Below, piece by piece: positions 4,093 through 23,599 of a stretch of DNA of 24,386 bases. Position 1 is the first letter of the stretch. Every line of letters starts with the position of its first letter. The translations under genes were made by a program, and so were the position numbers. The DNA is from a virus, in IMG/VR virus record IMGVR_UViG_3300025479_000001, positions 1 through 24,386 of that record. One strand, written 5' to 3'. The notes below the pieces were generated by a model. That model did not search any database. It was given only the letters and a program-made list of their open reading frames with translations, and had not been told where the DNA came from.

Positions 4093-4132
4093 AAAATATT
4101 GATACAGTAGATTAAAAAACGGAGTTGAAAAA

Positions 4133-4447
4133 ACGGATATCAACGCTGAATTCCTTTCTGTTTTAGCAAATGCTATATTACTGCCTACGGCTGCCGCTCT
4201 GCTTCTGAAGCTGAAAAAATACGGTCCTGAGATACTCAAGGCATATACTCAGATCCAGACCCTTCAGACGAAGGGCGCTGGCGTTTTAGTGGTCATTACT
4301 GATCTTCGGGATACCGCTATGGTCACCAGGCAGGCAATGTGCGATCAGAGGATCACTCCTGAAGAGGCAACCTGCATCATTGACCACATCGATAAGATGT
4401 ACAACTCGGAAGAGGTTCAGGCACTGATGAAGGAGTTCGCTGTCTAA
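4133..4447 (+). CDS. Small membrane protein, holin-like; apparent ACG start, 104 aa
   Basis: The frame is open from 4103 but has no ATG, GTG or TTG before a GTG at 4289. ACG 4133 lies 8 nt after GGAG (4121-4124), in the context TGAAAAAACGG. The tape measure gene has the same context with ATG in place of ACG. The protein has one hydrophobic helix at about 7-25 (ending LLLKL), then KKYG and amphipathic helices with RITPEEATCIIDHI near the C-terminus. That layout is similar to single-span LLH-type holins, which open the membrane at lysis. Size and position after the terminase fit, but the sequence match is weak. Alternatives to ACG are a -1 slip on the A6 run from TTG 4125, or a sequencing error. 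Confidence 0.55.
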   Translation, partial: TDINAEFLSVLANAILLPTAAALLLKLKKYGPEILKAYTQIQTLQTKGAGVLVVITDLRDTAMVTRQAMCDQRITPEEATCIIDHIDKMYNSEEVQALMKEFAV

Positions 4448-8695: not shown

Positions 8696-8728
8696 AACTA
8701 ACACTATACTTTATTCTCACTCTATATA

Positions 8729-8774
8729 CTAAAATATATATCATATAGTTACATACTATCTATATACATTTTAG
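8729..8774. promoter_or_regulatory. Plus-strand promoter region of the head operon with inverted repeat
   Basis: AT-rich TATA candidates are AATATATAT (8733-8741) and CTATATAC (8760-8767). The first would give a leader of about 30 nt. CTAAAATATA (8729-8738) and TACATTTTAG (8765-8774) are inverted with one mismatch, so they could be an operator. The region lies back-to-back with the minus-strand promoter. Confidence 0.45.
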
Positions 8775-8792
8775 ATACTAGGATGTGAAAAA

Positions 8793-10349
8793 ACGGCTAC
8801 TGACTTTGTTAATGTAAAGATACCGAGGGATACCCGGGACACTGTAAAAAATATAAGTAAAGCGAATAGGCAGACGATAGGCGAGACTGTCGCTCAATTT
8901 GCACAAGCTCAGACCTCTGGATCTATGGGACCTCTCGCCAGGAACTCAGGCAAAGAGCAGGGCACGATCTTCATTTCTCAAACCGGAGAAGTATTCAAGA
9001 GTCCAAAGATCACAGTCGAAAAAATAAAAGAAATGCTTCAAAATCCCTACATCAAAACGCAATTAAGAAGACGTTCCCTCACTCATTTTCCTGATAGAGT
9101 TCTGATTGAAGCACTTGACCCAACACAGAACGTAGACGAAGAAGTCACGCACAGATTACAAAACATGTGTGAGTTAGAAGATGTCAGATTAAACGAGAAA
9201 ATCAAGCAGGCTGATTCGGATTCTCATAATTACGGTGAAGCTCATTATAATCCTATCTGGGTAAGGAAAGGAAGCGAGATCACACTGCAAAAACTTCGGC
9301 ACTTGCCTGCTTGGTCTTTTGATACGTGCCCGATCTCAGAAAATATAGGTCTTACCTGGTCGGCTCTTCTGAGCGGTGTTATCCTGGGTGAAAATGGACC
9401 GGAATATTGGCAACGCCAGAACGATATACAGCTGCAACCTATACAAATCACTAATATCCTGATTGTCAAAGATCCCCAGAGCGAAGGACTAGCCGGAGAT
9501 TCTGAACTCCTTCCCCTTTGTCAGATCGTTGAAATGATTAAGTATGGCTGGAATACCGAAATGCAGGTTATTCACAGGTCAGGGGCTCCAATATTCTTTA
9601 TCAAGATAACTAATCCAAGACCCGCAGAGGACCCGGCGTGTGATGGTGTCTCAGACATTGCTTATGCTAATATGGTTATCAAAAAGGCATCGAAAAACAC
9701 ACAATTCATCCTCCGAGATAACATGGAAATTGTGAATGTGCCTCTAGATCCAAAAAAAGACGTTCTCCAGACGATAGACGTACTAAATGCAGTCATTGAA
9801 GACTATTTCTCAATTTCGAAAATGTTATCAAAGGGCGGCGCTCTGATAGGTGGGTCAAACATCTCAGAACTTAAGCTCTTGAATCAGGCTATCCGAGGGC
9901 TCCATAACTGGTTATTAGCGCCCTTCGAAGATCTTCTTAATCAGTATTTCACACTCAATAACTTCCCTGAAGGGTGGACTGTCAGGCTAACAATTCCAGT
10001 GTGGGACGAAGATAAAACAGCCTCCGATCAAAAGGACGCAGAATTGGGAATATCCGGGCAATGTGTAGACCTGGACGACCTGAGACAAAAGCTCCATTAC
10101 GAACCCGCAGACGATGCGAAAAAGGCCAGTATAGAAGCGTTCTGGGCGTCGAAAGTGCCCGCTCCTGTAGCTAGTGCAACCCTTGCTCAAGTGCCAGATG
10201 AGGCGAAACCTGCTCAATTCTCAAAGCCTGCTATACACATGCACGAGGGGGATGATATTCAAGATCCCATAGCTGATGAAATGGCAAGCAAATTAAGTCA
10301 GGCACTTGATAAACTTTCCGAGGAAATTCTAGGGGCGTATCCTGCATGA
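8793..10349 (+). CDS. Portal protein (Mu gp29-like) with RHH-like N-terminus; apparent ACG start, 518 aa
   Basis: Portals form the dodecameric DNA gateway of the head. The body (residues about 45-440) fits a Mu gp29/DUF935-type portal, with the long helix region LLPLCQIVEMIKYGW. The segment around SKGGALIGGS and the acidic C-terminal tail also fit. The frame opens after TAG 8772 with no ATG/GTG/TTG before ATG 8925. ACG 8793 has the same TGAAAAAACGG context as the gene at 4133. Residues 4-40 (beta strand VNVKIP, then two helices split by NRQT) look like a ribbon-helix-helix DNA-binding fold, odd for a portal. Starting at 8925 would lose it. The C-terminus carries a QFS motif and overlaps the methyltransferase start (ATGA). 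Confidence 0.78.
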   Translation, partial: TATDFVNVKIPRDTRDTVKNISKANRQTIGETVAQFAQAQTSGSMGPLARNSGKEQGTIFISQTGEVFKSPKITVEKIKEMLQNPYIKTQLRRRSLTHFPDRVLIEALDPTQNVDEEVTHRLQNMCELEDVRLNEKIKQADSDSHNYGEAHYNPIWVRKGSEITLQKLRHLPAWSFDTCPISENIGLTWSALLSGVILGENGPEYWQRQNDIQLQPIQITNILIVKDPQSEGLAGDSELLPLCQIVEMIKYGWNTEMQVIHRSGAPIFFIKITNPRPAEDPACDGVSDIAYANMVIKKASKNTQFILRDNMEIVNVPLDPKKDVLQTIDVLNAVIEDYFSISKMLSKGGALIGGSNISELKLLNQAIRGLHNWLLAPFEDLLNQYFTLNNFPEGWTVRLTIPVWDEDKTASDQKDAELGISGQCVDLDDLRQKLHYEPADDAKKASIEAFWASKVPAPVASATLAQVPDEAKPAQFSKPAIHMHEGDDIQDPIADEMASKLSQALDKLSEEILGAYPA

Positions 10350-11029
10350 AAAACGAGGTACTTATAGGAGATTGTAAGGATGTTCTAAAGCAATATCCTG
10401 ATAATTATTTTGATCTTGTTTTGACTGATCCTCCTTATGGTATATTCGGCGGGGATAAACCTTTTGGGAAAGGTAAAAAAATCGGCGGGGACAAATGCGC
10501 TCTTGCTACAGAGTATCATAATTTCAATTGGGATATCAAACTTTCAAAAGAACATATTGCGGAAATAAGAAGAGTATCAAAAAATCAAATCATATTCGGT
10601 GGGAATTATTACGCAGATTGGTTACCCCCTTCCTCCTGTTGGATAGCCTGGGATAAGAAAAATGGAGCTTCCGGTTTTGCAGACTGTGAGTTAGCCTGGA
10701 CTTCATTTAAATCAGCTGCCCGTCTTTTTAGTTGGAAATGGAACGGGATGTTACAAGAGGATATGAAACACAAAGAGAAGAGGGTTTATCCTACTCAGAA
10801 ACCAATTGCACTTTATAAATGGCTTCTTGAAAAATACGCAAAGCCGGGTTATAAAATATGTGATCCTTGTTGTGGATCGGGTACTATATTTGCAGCATCC
10901 AATCAACTACCTGAAATGGATTTTGAAGTTATCGGGATTGATAAAAACGTTTCCGCGCTGCCTATCATACAGGAAAGAGGACAACTTAACACCGTCACAC
11001 TCGAATCTTTCGAGAAGGTGATAGTATGA
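10346..11029 (+). CDS. DNA methyltransferase, beta class (N6-A or N4-C), 227 aa
   Basis: The catalytic motif TDPPY lies at 27-31, YPTQKP at 148-153, and the AdoMet-binding motif DPCCGSGT at 173-180. The order, DPPY before the AdoMet loop, defines the beta class that methylates exocyclic amino groups. No target-recognition domain of any size is present, as in many viral orphan enzymes, and no restriction gene is adjacent. It may protect viral DNA from host restriction or mark it for packaging. It overlaps both neighbours by 4 nt, so it is expressed with the head genes. Confidence 0.88.
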   Translation: MKNEVLIGDCKDVLKQYPDNYFDLVLTDPPYGIFGGDKPFGKGKKIGGDKCALATEYHNFNWDIKLSKEHIAEIRRVSKNQIIFGGNYYADWLPPSSCWIAWDKKNGASGFADCELAWTSFKSAARLFSWKWNGMLQEDMKHKEKRVYPTQKPIALYKWLLEKYAKPGYKICDPCCGSGTIFAASNQLPEMDFEVIGIDKNVSALPIIQERGQLNTVTLESFEKVIV

Positions 11030-11967: not shown

Positions 11968-12999
11968 ATGGCACTAAAAAACGAAACTTCCGTGCAATGT
12001 ACGTCAGAGCCTATATCCAACATTCACCAAGTCATGTTTCAGACACTTGAGCGCAATCTTGGATACGATGAGTACGGACTACCTATTTTTTTCCCCAAAG
12101 ATGCCTATCAATCGGCTATAGAAAACGCCAACAACGTTAAAATTGTTTTTTCGTCGGGTGTTCATCCTGATTTCGAACTGTATGACGTTGATCCGGCAAA
12201 GGCAATCCGGGAAGCAGGTGGGAGGGAAGCAGGAGTACTACTGAATCCATATATAAACACAGTCGGGCATCCGATGGCATACGGCGATTTTGGACTATAC
12301 AATGATCCAGACATCGAACTACTGAATCAAGAGGGGCATCTCTCTATGAGCCCTTCTCTTGGGCTGACAAGGGACGAAAAGGGCAACATTACAAAAATAC
12401 GACTTCAAAATATTCTAATCTTCCCTGAAATTCCTGGGGGGGAATATGTACCGAGAGATCCGGGTACTAAATTACTCAACTCTCAACATAATCCACTTAA
12501 TAAAAAATCAACTATTCAAAAAACGGGTAATACCATGACTGAAAAACCAGATGGAGCACAGGCTCCTATCGACCTAGCCGGTCTTGCTGAGATGGTGGCA
12601 CAGTTCACCGCATCCAGCAAGAAGGCAGAGGAAGAAAAGGCACAGTTCACCGCAATGCTTGAAGCAAAGGACAAGGCCCTTGCGGATCTCCAGGCTAGTA
12701 TCGCAAAGCAGGAAGCCGCTAGGAAAGACTCCGAATTTAAAGCACTCATTGAAGATCCCAATTTCCCGGTGGGTATGAAAGCAGGTGACGGATTCGAGGC
12801 AACTCTCCGAGCCGAGTTTGAAGCAAGTCCTGTCCAGTTTACTAAAAAAGTTGTAACTGCAATGGCAACTCTCGGAACTCAGTTACCTGGAGAACAGGGT
12901 GCACAATTCACTGGACAGAAGCCTAAAAAACACACTGACGCAGAAATCGCGATATATAAAAAACTTGGACTTTCCGAAGCTGAATATCCGGAGGCTTGA
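11968..12999 (+). CDS. Prohead protease fused to scaffold, 343 aa
   Basis: Residues about 30-175 resemble phage capsid maturation proteases (Mu gpI / DUF2213-like): a conserved GH region (NTVGHPMAYGDF), then LSMSPSLGL with the likely Ser nucleophile, and the FPEIPGG region. After a Lys-rich linker, residues 190-343 are scaffold-like: a helical, Ala/Lys/Glu-rich coiled coil near 215-255 (KKAEEEKAQ, AKDKALADLQ). The gene lies between gpF and the decoration and capsid genes, as in Mu. Four QFT tripeptides occur in the scaffold part. It is expressed from its own promoter. Assignment of the catalytic His and Ser is by pattern only. Confidence 0.75.
   Translation: MALKNETSVQCTSEPISNIHQVMFQTLERNLGYDEYGLPIFFPKDAYQSAIENANNVKIVFSSGVHPDFELYDVDPAKAIREAGGREAGVLLNPYINTVGHPMAYGDFGLYNDPDIELLNQEGHLSMSPSLGLTRDEKGNITKIRLQNILIFPEIPGGEYVPRDPGTKLLNSQHNPLNKKSTIQKTGNTMTEKPDGAQAPIDLAGLAEMVAQFTASSKKAEEEKAQFTAMLEAKDKALADLQASIAKQEAARKDSEFKALIEDPNFPVGMKAGDGFEATLRAEFEASPVQFTKKVVTAMATLGTQLPGEQGAQFTGQKPKKHTDAEIAIYKKLGLSEAEYPEA
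12535..12999 (+). CDS. Internal scaffold protein, 154 aa, same frame as protease
   Basis: An in-frame ATG at codon 190 lies after AAAAAACGGGTAAT, the A-run-CGG element found before several other starts in this window. Starting here gives just the scaffold half (MTEKPDGAQAPIDL...), mirroring lambda C/Nu3 and Mu gpI/gpZ, where the scaffold is a nested product. The SD (GGGTAAT) is only moderate. Confidence 0.55.
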   Translation: MTEKPDGAQAPIDLAGLAEMVAQFTASSKKAEEEKAQFTAMLEAKDKALADLQASIAKQEAARKDSEFKALIEDPNFPVGMKAGDGFEATLRAEFEASPVQFTKKVVTAMATLGTQLPGEQGAQFTGQKPKKHTDAEIAIYKKLGLSEAEYPEA

Positions 13000-20579: not shown

Positions 20580-21029
20580 ATGACAGGACCGGAAGTGGAA
20601 TTTATCCCCGGATATTCTCTTTTTTTTACTAACCGTGGGCAATTGAAAATGTATGAACTGCTCGGGGTTAGAAACTATACACAGTTTATCAAACTTTTCA
20701 ATGATACCGACGGACTCGACAATGACCAACTCACGAAGATAGTTTACGCGGGGTTGATCTGGGAAAAGAAAGGGCTAACTCTCGAAGATGTAGGCGACCT
20801 CATAGAGAACGAGTTTTATATCAAACTTCGTAAAAACTTTGAAGACCTCAATACTATAATCATTGATGGACTTGCAAACTCGGGGCTGCTTGATAAAAAA
20901 GTAATTGCTACAATCCGTGAAATGAAAAAGATGTCTTCGGAAGAAATAAATGCTAAAATACTTGAAAAGAAACTAGAGAAGGCTGAAAAGGGGGAGGATA
21001 AGGGGGAAGCATTGCAGACCTTGACATAG
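20580..21029 (+). CDS. Tail assembly chaperone, G-like, 149 aa
   Basis: It lies between the tube and tape measure genes, the normal place for the chaperone that coats the tape measure protein. The middle is all helix (LTLEDVGDLIENEFYIKLRK), and the end is Lys/Glu-rich (KILEKKLEKAEKGEDKG). It ends in TAG, rare in this window. The last 25 nt hold the shift zone to the -1 frame that continues to 21400. Confidence 0.7.
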   Translation: MTGPEVEFIPGYSLFFTNRGQLKMYELLGVRNYTQFIKLFNDTDGLDNDQLTKIVYAGLIWEKKGLTLEDVGDLIENEFYIKLRKNFEDLNTIIIDGLANSGLLDKKVIATIREMKKMSSEEINAKILEKKLEKAEKGEDKGEALQTLT

Positions 21030-21400
21030 ATGAGTATTTCGACAGGCAGCAAAGAAGTTTATTCCGGGTTTGTGGGAAAACTCCCCAAGAGTTTTGGGGA
21101 TATTCACCAGGCGACACTAATTTGATGATTGAAGAAGGCAGCAAGGAACTAACAGCAAAAATTAAATTAGACACAATAAGACATGCAGATTTAAAAGTGT
21201 CAATTCTAAATGCTCCAAACTCTCACAGAATAGATGATAAGTTATGGACTCTTGAGGATGTTATAGATAAAGAACTCGCAGACGAACTTAAAAAACTTAT
21301 GAAAGATCAGCCTAAAAAACAAACTTCTAAAAAAGAACAGTCTGCTAGATGGTCGGCTGCAGGGAATGCTTATATGAGTCAATTTGACGGGCTTAAATGA
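21002..21400 (+). CDS. Tail chaperone GT-type extension, read by -1 frameshift
   Basis: This frame has no start of its own near its beginning. It is open from 21002 to the TGA at 21400, while the zero-frame TAG is at 21027-21029. A -1 slip with GGG at 21003-21005 re-pairing to GGG at 21002-21004 fuses it to the G-like protein (junction ...EDKG-GSIADLD...). The segment DEYFDRQQRSLFRVCGKTP and FWGYSP resembles the short helical T part of lambda-type chaperones. An upstream AAAGGGG heptamer (20987-20993) would slip into a stop. An alternative start at ATG 21122/21125 has no SD. Confidence 0.62.
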   Translation, partial: GGSIADLDIDEYFDRQQRSLFRVCGKTPQEFWGYSPGDTNLMIEEGSKELTAKIKLDTIRHADLKVSILNAPNSHRIDDKLWTLEDVIDKELADELKKLMKDQPKKQTSKKEQSARWSAAGNAYMSQFDGLK

Positions 21401-21453: not shown

Positions 21454-21469
21454 AAAAAACGGTGAAAAA

Positions 21470-23599
21470 ATGGGAATGATAGGTGAAGTTTTCGCACTCG
21501 CTGGACTACACGTTGATAGTGCTAGTTTCGCGGCCTACGGGTCCGCACTTCAGGGGGCTGAAAGCGGGGTCAGTGAGTTCGCTTCTGGCACTAAGGCCAT
21601 TATGGCGGGTGCCTTTGTCCTGCCGGCGGCGGCCCTCGCTGGAGTTGCCGGTTATGGCGTAGAACTCGCTTCCGGTTTTCAAGACGCCGGGGTCTCACTA
21701 ACTAATCTGTATGGTTCAGCAGACGTCGCAAAACAAAAATTCGATTGGATGACGAATTTTGCAGCTCAAACTCCTTTTAATTTTACTGAAATAGAACAGG
21801 GCGCGATAAAATTAAAATCGTATGGTATGGACATCGAAACTTATGGGCGGACGATGGGAGATACCGCCTCGAACATGGGGAAAAGTTTTAATGATGTCAT
21901 TGAAGCATACGCGGACGCGGGTAATGGAGAATTTGAACGGCTGAAAGAGTTCGGTGTCAAGGCCGTCGTCGTGCAAAAATCGAATTTAGATACATATGCT
22001 AAGTACGGCGCACAAATGAACGATACCGTGTTAAAATACACGGATAAAACCGGCAAAGAGATGGCTCAGGTCGTTGACCGGAATAATTCTCAAATGGTCT
22101 ATTCGACACTCAATAATATTTTTGATGTAGAAAAAGGGTTCCAGGGTGCGATGGAAACCCGGAGTAAAACATTAACGGGGATGATGTCAAATATAACCGA
22201 CAATCTCACATCGGGGCTATCGCATCTTGTCGGCTATGAAGACATGAAAGTTCAGACCTTCTCACTTATGGGGGCACTCACGGGGCTCGCGGGCGTTGCC
22301 GTTGATGTGTCCGGTGCATTCGCGCATATGAGCGAGCCTATGCAGACTATAATCCTAGTGGTGGCGGGTGCTACGGCGGCCATCGGATTATTAGCAGCGG
22401 GATCCATTGCGTACGGTCTTATACTACCTCTTATTACTGCCGATACTTTTTTGTTTGGTGCTACGTTATCGGCTGCTATCTGGCCTGTTACTCTGATAGT
22501 CGGCGGTATAGCTCTTCTAGCTGCCGGGCTCGTTTATCTCGATGAAAAAACGGGACTTGTAACGGCGGCATGGGAAGTCGCAAAAGACGCATTCACTATT
22601 TTTGTTGAGTATATTACCATAGCTGCCGGGATGTTGTACGATTTTATAGTTCCGAAATTAGAAGAAATCAAACAGGCATATTTGGATATGATCCCGCAAG
22701 GAGCTATTGACGCTGTTGTGGGTTTCGCGAGCAAGATTTCAGATTTGTTCGGGGGGGCTGCTTCTAGTATCCACACACAGGCAGAAGGAATTAGAAAAGA
22801 CAACGAAGAAACGGCGAAATCTTTTGACACATATTCAAATGTGAATATGGGTGGAACTGGATCACAGATTACAACAGTCGACGGTCTTGTTAAAACGTTA
22901 ACAGGTGACGCTAAAACCGGAACTACCGCGCTTGATGCCATGGGGAAAGTGCCTGCCGCGGGAACTATAGCAGGACTAACCGGAATAGACACCGGAGCGA
23001 AAAACGCAACAACTTCAGGAAAACAATTACAAGTTAACCTCACGGCTCTTGGTAGTGTTTCGATGGGTGGGACGACAGCTCAACTTATGCTGATTGACTC
23101 AACTGGGAAACGCTCAAGTCTTACAGTCAGCCAACTTCAGGAATATTTGAAACAGGCCGGGAACGTTTCGGCTTCGGGGACCATCGGACAACTCGCACTC
23201 GTTGATTCATCGGGAAAAGCCACGAATATTACCACGCAACAGGCAATAAACCTCCTGAGCAGTGCCGGATCTCAGAGCATGAGCGGCACGATTGGAGGGA
23301 TTAACGGGATAACCTCTGCGTGGGCACAAGCTAACGCCGCAGCTAACGCCTATGCAAAATCCGCTATAGCTCAGGCACAGGCTGAAATCACGTATCGGAA
23401 TGGGATGAAAGACTCAACGAGTACCGGGATGACATCAAAAGAAGGAGTGACCGTCATTGGTGCAACTCCTAAAGTTAATATGAGTGTAGTTTCCCCAAGT
23501 AAAACGACGACGGGACCAACTGTAAATAATTATAATATTGGAACAGTTAATAATAACGGCTCAACACTGCAAAAAACAGCAGCCCGGAGGGTAACATAA
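21470..23599 (+). CDS. Tape measure protein, 709 aa
   Basis: The start follows GGTGA with a spacing of 4 nt. The N-terminal part (about 1-270) is the phage tail tape domain, with helix SGTKAIMAGAFVLPAAALAG and the QTPFNFTEIEQGAIKLKSYG block. Membrane-like segments lie at about 285-360, as in many tape measure proteins, and probably aid DNA entry. Residues 457-600 hold four exact 36-residue repeats (see repeat entry). The C-terminus NNYNIGTVNNNG is typical. It sets tail length: at the lambda rule of about 0.15 nm per residue, roughly 100 nm. Confidence 0.88.
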   Translation: MGMIGEVFALAGLHVDSASFAAYGSALQGAESGVSEFASGTKAIMAGAFVLPAAALAGVAGYGVELASGFQDAGVSLTNLYGSADVAKQKFDWMTNFAAQTPFNFTEIEQGAIKLKSYGMDIETYGRTMGDTASNMGKSFNDVIEAYADAGNGEFERLKEFGVKAVVVQKSNLDTYAKYGAQMNDTVLKYTDKTGKEMAQVVDRNNSQMVYSTLNNIFDVEKGFQGAMETRSKTLTGMMSNITDNLTSGLSHLVGYEDMKVQTFSLMGALTGLAGVAVDVSGAFAHMSEPMQTIILVVAGATAAIGLLAAGSIAYGLILPLITADTFLFGATLSAAIWPVTLIVGGIALLAAGLVYLDEKTGLVTAAWEVAKDAFTIFVEYITIAAGMLYDFIVPKLEEIKQAYLDMIPQGAIDAVVGFASKISDLFGGAASSIHTQAEGIRKDNEETAKSFDTYSNVNMGGTGSQITTVDGLVKTLTGDAKTGTTALDAMGKVPAAGTIAGLTGIDTGAKNATTSGKQLQVNLTALGSVSMGGTTAQLMLIDSTGKRSSLTVSQLQEYLKQAGNVSASGTIGQLALVDSSGKATNITTQQAINLLSSAGSQSMSGTIGGINGITSAWAQANAAANAYAKSAIAQAQAEITYRNGMKDSTSTGMTSKEGVTVIGATPKVNMSVVSPSKTTTGPTVNNYNIGTVNNNGSTLQKTAARRVT
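22838..23269 (+). repeat. Four 36-residue (108-bp) repeats in tape measure protein
   Basis: Units begin at residues 457, 493, 529 and 565, each close to x-V-x-M-G-G-T-x-x-Q-L, with a fifth partial unit at 601. No gaps interrupt the period. DNA copies have diverged, so the repeat is old or kept at protein level. Confidence 0.75.

Follow-up and report, generated by a model that had tools for sequence, protein, structure and literature searches.

The stretch of DNA analysed here (the window; 24,386 bases) is an IMG/VR fragment that carries terminase, portal, Mu-F-like, cement, major capsid, tail, and tape-measure genes; the portal gene, the second ACG-headed ORF, and the start-site elements considered below lie on its plus strand. 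The portal protein gene, read from an ACG codon, occupies positions 8793–10349 (518 codons) in a frame that is open over 8775–10349, and it aligns end to end with its two closest portal relatives in IMG/VR, designated L011 (54% identity) and L004 (52% identity). An AlphaFold model of the protein matches solved portals, including that of Haloferax tailed virus 1, with solved portals ranking first; the model is of low confidence (mean pLDDT, 57), and the match to the portal fold is hence moderate. A weak Portal_Mu match was obtained for L011, and the portal gene clusters with the TerL and Mu F genes. The predicted fold and the position beside the terminase and Mu-F-like head genes both fit the portal of a tailed virus. 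Among named records, Caudoviricetes sp. vir524 (BK063669), whose assigned host is Methanomicrobiales, is the best match for both the portal (31% identical) and the terminase (43.5% identical), and because of these matches the host of the present virus is probably an archaeon, most plausibly a methanogen. The vir524 portal is homologous to that of the window and adjoins a homologous terminase, but is devoid of the N-terminal helix-helix domain described below. At locus L135, the IMG/VR match of vir524, the first canonical start in the portal frame is GTG.

The original prediction held that the portal frame is free of ATG, GTG, and TTG before 8925 and that its first 44 codons are coding-like, and both points were borne out. 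Between the preceding stop and ATG 8925–8927, the first canonical start in frame, none of the three codons occurs, leaving the beginning of the coding region with no canonical in-frame start. The codons at 8793–8924 gave a coding score of 0.151 per codon, as compared with 0.157 ± 0.072 for in-frame stretches and −0.41 ± 0.21 (maximum, 0.007) for off-frame stretches of this virus. A run of 43 codons without ATG, GTG, or TTG is common enough by chance (p about 0.21), and because such a run is not rare alone, the case rests on the position of the start.

This position is marked by the relatives. Both L011 and L004 begin with ATG ACT TCY GAC ACT GTA, where the window has ACG GCT ACT GAC TTT GTT, so that the proposed start, ACG 8793–8795, aligns with their ATG; the alignment is gap-free through the first 34 residues. 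Over the N-terminal 35 codons, L004 and L011 differ from each other by 12 synonymous and 3 nonsynonymous codon differences, so that the stretch is coding in both. Coding signal and homology in the window begin at ACG 8793, not downstream. It had been suggested that related viruses be searched for ACG at the same place; the place of the start was found to be the same in both, whereas the codon there is ATG. The comparison comprises two genomes, which are similar to each other: near relatives were sought in viral contigs (7 of 8 scans), genome contigs (2 scans), phages, and plasmids, among which only L004 and L011 have the portal N-terminus, and the two scans of genome contigs contained no near relative of the window.

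The segment at 8793–8921, which would be lost if translation started at ATG 8925, encodes an N-terminal domain that is conserved in L011 and L004. Two helices are predicted, at residues 12–24 and 29–41 (pLDDT 80). A profile search placed Arc among the top matches, all weak (best E, 0.07), a fold search returned mostly ribbon-helix-helix proteins, none of them significant, and no Pfam family scored above the cut-off. The domain is tentatively assigned to the ribbon-helix-helix (Arc/CopG) type; it would be unusual for a portal to carry a DNA-binding domain at its front. The ribbon-helix-helix-like N-termini are located at 8793–8921 in the window, at 7790 in L004, and at 3861 in L011. More distant portals of the family, vir524 and others, are without this domain and align only from residues 49–58.

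Upstream of the ACG codon, the Shine–Dalgarno (SD) sequence AGGATGTGA at 8780–8788 matches AGGAGGTGA at 8 of 9 positions (duplex energy, −9.2 kcal/mol) and lies 4 nt before the codon. To define the register, the complement of the 16S rRNA tail (AGGAGGTGAT) was aligned gap-free upstream of 27 canonical starts, in a scoring scheme of our own and with some of the starts picked by eye; 24 of these gave a clear match, and in them the start codon followed the register end by 2–5 nt, with a mode of 3 nt that accounted for more than half. The ribosome-binding site is in the correct register with ACG 8793 (AGGATGTGA-AAAA-ACG; offset 3), and the same offset was found for a second codon, ACG 4133 (CGGAGTTGA-AAAA-ACG). 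The competing starts have offsets of −5 (GTG 8785), −5 (TTG 4125), −3 (ATG 8925), and +7 (GTG 4289), and duplex energies are −8.7 kcal/mol for ACG 4133, −3.7 kcal/mol for GTG 8785, and −3.1 kcal/mol for ATG 8925. The energies at the two ACG codons are among the best of this virus and are equalled by about 1–3% of random sites. By chance, 22 of the 501 ACGs on both strands carry a comparable SD; 14 of these are on the plus strand, where 8793 and 4133 alone open frames longer than 100 codons that have no canonical start either upstream or in the first 40 codons.

No SD precedes the portal ATG in L004 and L011, and one seems to have been acquired by the portal gene of the window, which agrees with the tendency of stronger SDs to offset weak starts in prokaryotes (PMC5622118). 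Across 2378 ORFs in the viral loci retrieved, SD-ACG starts were not convincingly in excess overall (15 observed, of which two come from the window itself, and 9.5 expected); as no general use of such starts was seen there, the trait may be private to the window's virus. The portal SD is overlapped by an ATG TGA start-stop pair (8783–8788), which could be a chance product of AGGATGTGA or a minimal upstream frame. Elsewhere in the window, at 4115, 6080, 18220, 19822, and 21455, genes are preceded by AAAAACGGAG or AAAAACGGTG, an SD whose front is A-rich.

The second ACG codon heads an ORFan at 4133–4447 (104 codons from ACG; coding score, 0.187) with one hydrophobic segment (hydropathy, 2.13 over residues 7–25) and with the SD sequence CGGAGTTGA at 4120–4128. 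This gene shares the arrangement of ACG and SD with the portal gene. Relatives of the ORFan were sought and none was found. The exact identity of the 11-mer TGAAAAAACGG at 8786–8796 and 4126–4136, reported in the original prediction, was confirmed; it consists of the SD end, an A spacer, ACG, and G. Dinucleotide shuffles gave an expectation of 0.04 copies, but the identity is less striking than this value suggests, because the genome is A-rich and A5-6CGG is recurrent in its ribosome-binding sites. A third copy (22543–22553) lies inside the tape-measure gene, where it is plain coding sequence in the frame GAT GAA AAA ACG GGA, and the start of the same gene (21470–23599) carries the ATG version, TGAAAAAATGG, at 21463–21473, with the same layout over 21460–21473 (CGGTGAAAAAATGG). 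With a coding copy at 22543 and an ATG version at 21463, the 11-mer was rejected as a dedicated ACG signal, and the argument that an ACG context shared by two genes speaks against chance calls for correction. The 11-mer is an SD end (GTGA/TTGA), an A-rich spacer, a start codon, and a G at +4, which is a common ribosome-binding design, since these elements stand in the same order around the ATG of the tape-measure gene.

Because the ATG of both relatives aligns with it, the SD register fits it, and the codons that a later start would skip bear a coding signal, ACG 8793 is taken as the start codon: the portal is probably translated from it under a strong and well-placed SD, as had been proposed. 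The ACG would most likely have arisen from an ancestral ATG by a single T-to-C change. Pairing of AGGATGTGA with the 16S rRNA tail would hold the P-site over ACG 8793, where the initiator Met-tRNA would pair with the A and G of the codon and tolerate the middle C–A mismatch, with a G at +4, to give the full 518-residue portal starting with Met. Initiation would probably be weaker than at AUG, which would fit a protein of about 12 copies per virion; portals form 12-mers, for which a low yield may be acceptable or even beneficial. Direct decoding of ACG by the initiator tRNA, the reduced yield, and any advantage thereof are what we infer. The product of the 4133 gene, being small and hydrophobic, might, at a guess, also need a low level. 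It is conceivable, although rather doubtful, that ACG under a strong and exactly placed SD is a deliberate low-efficiency start that restrains few-copy proteins (the portal and the small hydrophobic protein); the literature searched describes no such ACG-based control of expression in archaeal viruses.

A reduced yield from ACG would be expected because, in archaeal initiation, SD positioning is followed by local scanning and aIF1 acts against non-AUG codons (PMC6237735). The archaeal starts that have been reviewed are AUG, GUG, and UUG (PMC7531240), which counts against an ACG start, and in Haloferax mRNAs with short leaders UUG gave no detectable product, while AUG was 5–37 times better than GUG (PMC4574771). 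Two TATA-like elements (CTATATAC, consensus matches only) are located at 8722–8729 and 8760–8767, i.e., at −71 and −33 from the ACG. A promoter at the former would place the SD in the leader; one at the latter would leave the SD out of the mRNA and make it almost leaderless, which could count against an SD-led start at ACG. No RNA family and no unusual fold were found near 8793, nor was a tRNA gene able to read ACG found.

Both relatives have ATG, and the IMG/VR record is a metagenome consensus; nevertheless, a true ATG at 8793, with the C being a consensus error or a minority variant in the metagenome, is unlikely, as it needs a T-to-C error to have occurred twice independently, each time in a start codon under a well-placed SD, although the listed genes of the record are free of frameshift and nonsense lesions. 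The start might instead be truly broken by a recent loss-of-function mutation, with other virions providing the portal or the lineage on its way to extinction, and ACG is indeed a poor start codon in most systems. We regard this as very unlikely: two genes would have been hit, yet all listed reading frames of the record are intact, by which general decay is made improbable, and both ACGs would happen to be in the correct SD register. The domain-free portals of vir524 and other distant members of the family, which align from residues 49–58, are what favours a start at ATG 8925, with the upstream 44 codons untranslated or with a short form made alongside the long one. This start has a very low probability, however, given an SD that is not usable (−3.1 kcal/mol; offset −3), the conservation of the coding-like 44 codons in both close relatives, and the absence of ATG from the corresponding position of the latter; a dual long and short portal was judged unlikely on the same grounds of SD and relatives.

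In both genes, an NTG-A6-CGG sequence lies one base out of frame, so that translation could start at GTG 8785–8787 (and TTG 4125) and undergo a −1 shift on A6, or the run could really be A7 in the mRNA or DNA, with MKKTATDF... as the product. This rival, raised in the original prediction, is disfavoured by the SD register and by the start position of the relatives, and we consider it highly improbable. GTG 8785 and TTG 4125 abut the SD core (offset −5 versus 2 to 5 in the 24 canonical genes), the former being 8 nt too near the SD, and the extra KK is missing from the relatives, which start at the ACG position; by our own reasoning, moreover, an A6 run offers little length for the polymerase to slip on, and GAA blocks a tandem tRNA slip. 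We know of no C-to-U mRNA editing in archaea of the kind that would convert ACG into AUG at 8794 (and 4134), and such editing is exceedingly unlikely here. Chloroplast transcripts do make AUG from ACG in this way (PMC9845219), and the sequence context is the same at both sites; the SD register, however, accounts for the shared context without editing, and neither an editing system nor a deaminase gene came to notice in the window, albeit without a dedicated search.

Non-AUG starts are already known, and an ACG start in an archaeal virus is unreported in the literature searched, the coverage of which was incomplete. The VP2 capsid protein of AAV2 (PMC7354565) is likewise a viral structural protein made from a weak ACG start, but it depends on eukaryotic scanning without an SD and is a minor form in a nested set, whereas the window portal has no nested canonical start with an SD. 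Streptomyces sigR (PMC5472188) resembles the present case in that the level of a single protein is lowered by the non-canonical start of a prokaryotic gene; it differs in its GTC codon, in the bacterial factors involved (IF3 repression), and in having been shown experimentally, while the window ACG is read from sequence. Haloarchaeal non-AUG starts, including a GUC start reported for Halobacterium and cited in PMC4574771, also represent archaeal initiation outside AUG, GUG, and UUG, but on leaderless mRNA, in contrast to the SD and the ACG codon of the window portal. If ACG initiates, gene finders limited to ATG, GTG, and TTG would trim the portal by 44 residues, dropping a whole domain, and would misplace the start of the 4133 gene; further such genes may hide in archaeal viromes, and the locus would offer a clean natural test of an SD compensating a start-codon mismatch on the eukaryote-like initiation machinery of archaea.

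Several other features of the neighbourhood were observed. The gap between the portal and Mu-F-like genes (10346–11029 in the window, 9295–10552 in L004, and 5396–6771 in L011) varies in its cargo among the three and has the look of an insertion hot spot; that of the window carries a DNA methylase. The Mu-F-like head gene of L004 (10549–12270) is split by an intein-like insertion (CFTPDTEVETADGFKFI...), and in a helicase-like ORF of another locus, L006 (5591–8062), the Walker A motif contains an intein-like insertion (GCGKALPLDANVLTPKGF...VTHNTLTA). Within the protease-scaffold gene of the window (11968–12999), an internal ATG at 12536, preceded by AAAAAACGGGTAATACC and kept in L004 and L011 (MTEPT.., MNEQI..), is probably the start of a nested scaffold gene. 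The tail assembly chaperone pair (20580–21400) has a second frame without a start until 21122, which is probably reached, as in other tailed viruses, by a −1 frameshift near AAGGGGGAAGC (about 21000–21012).
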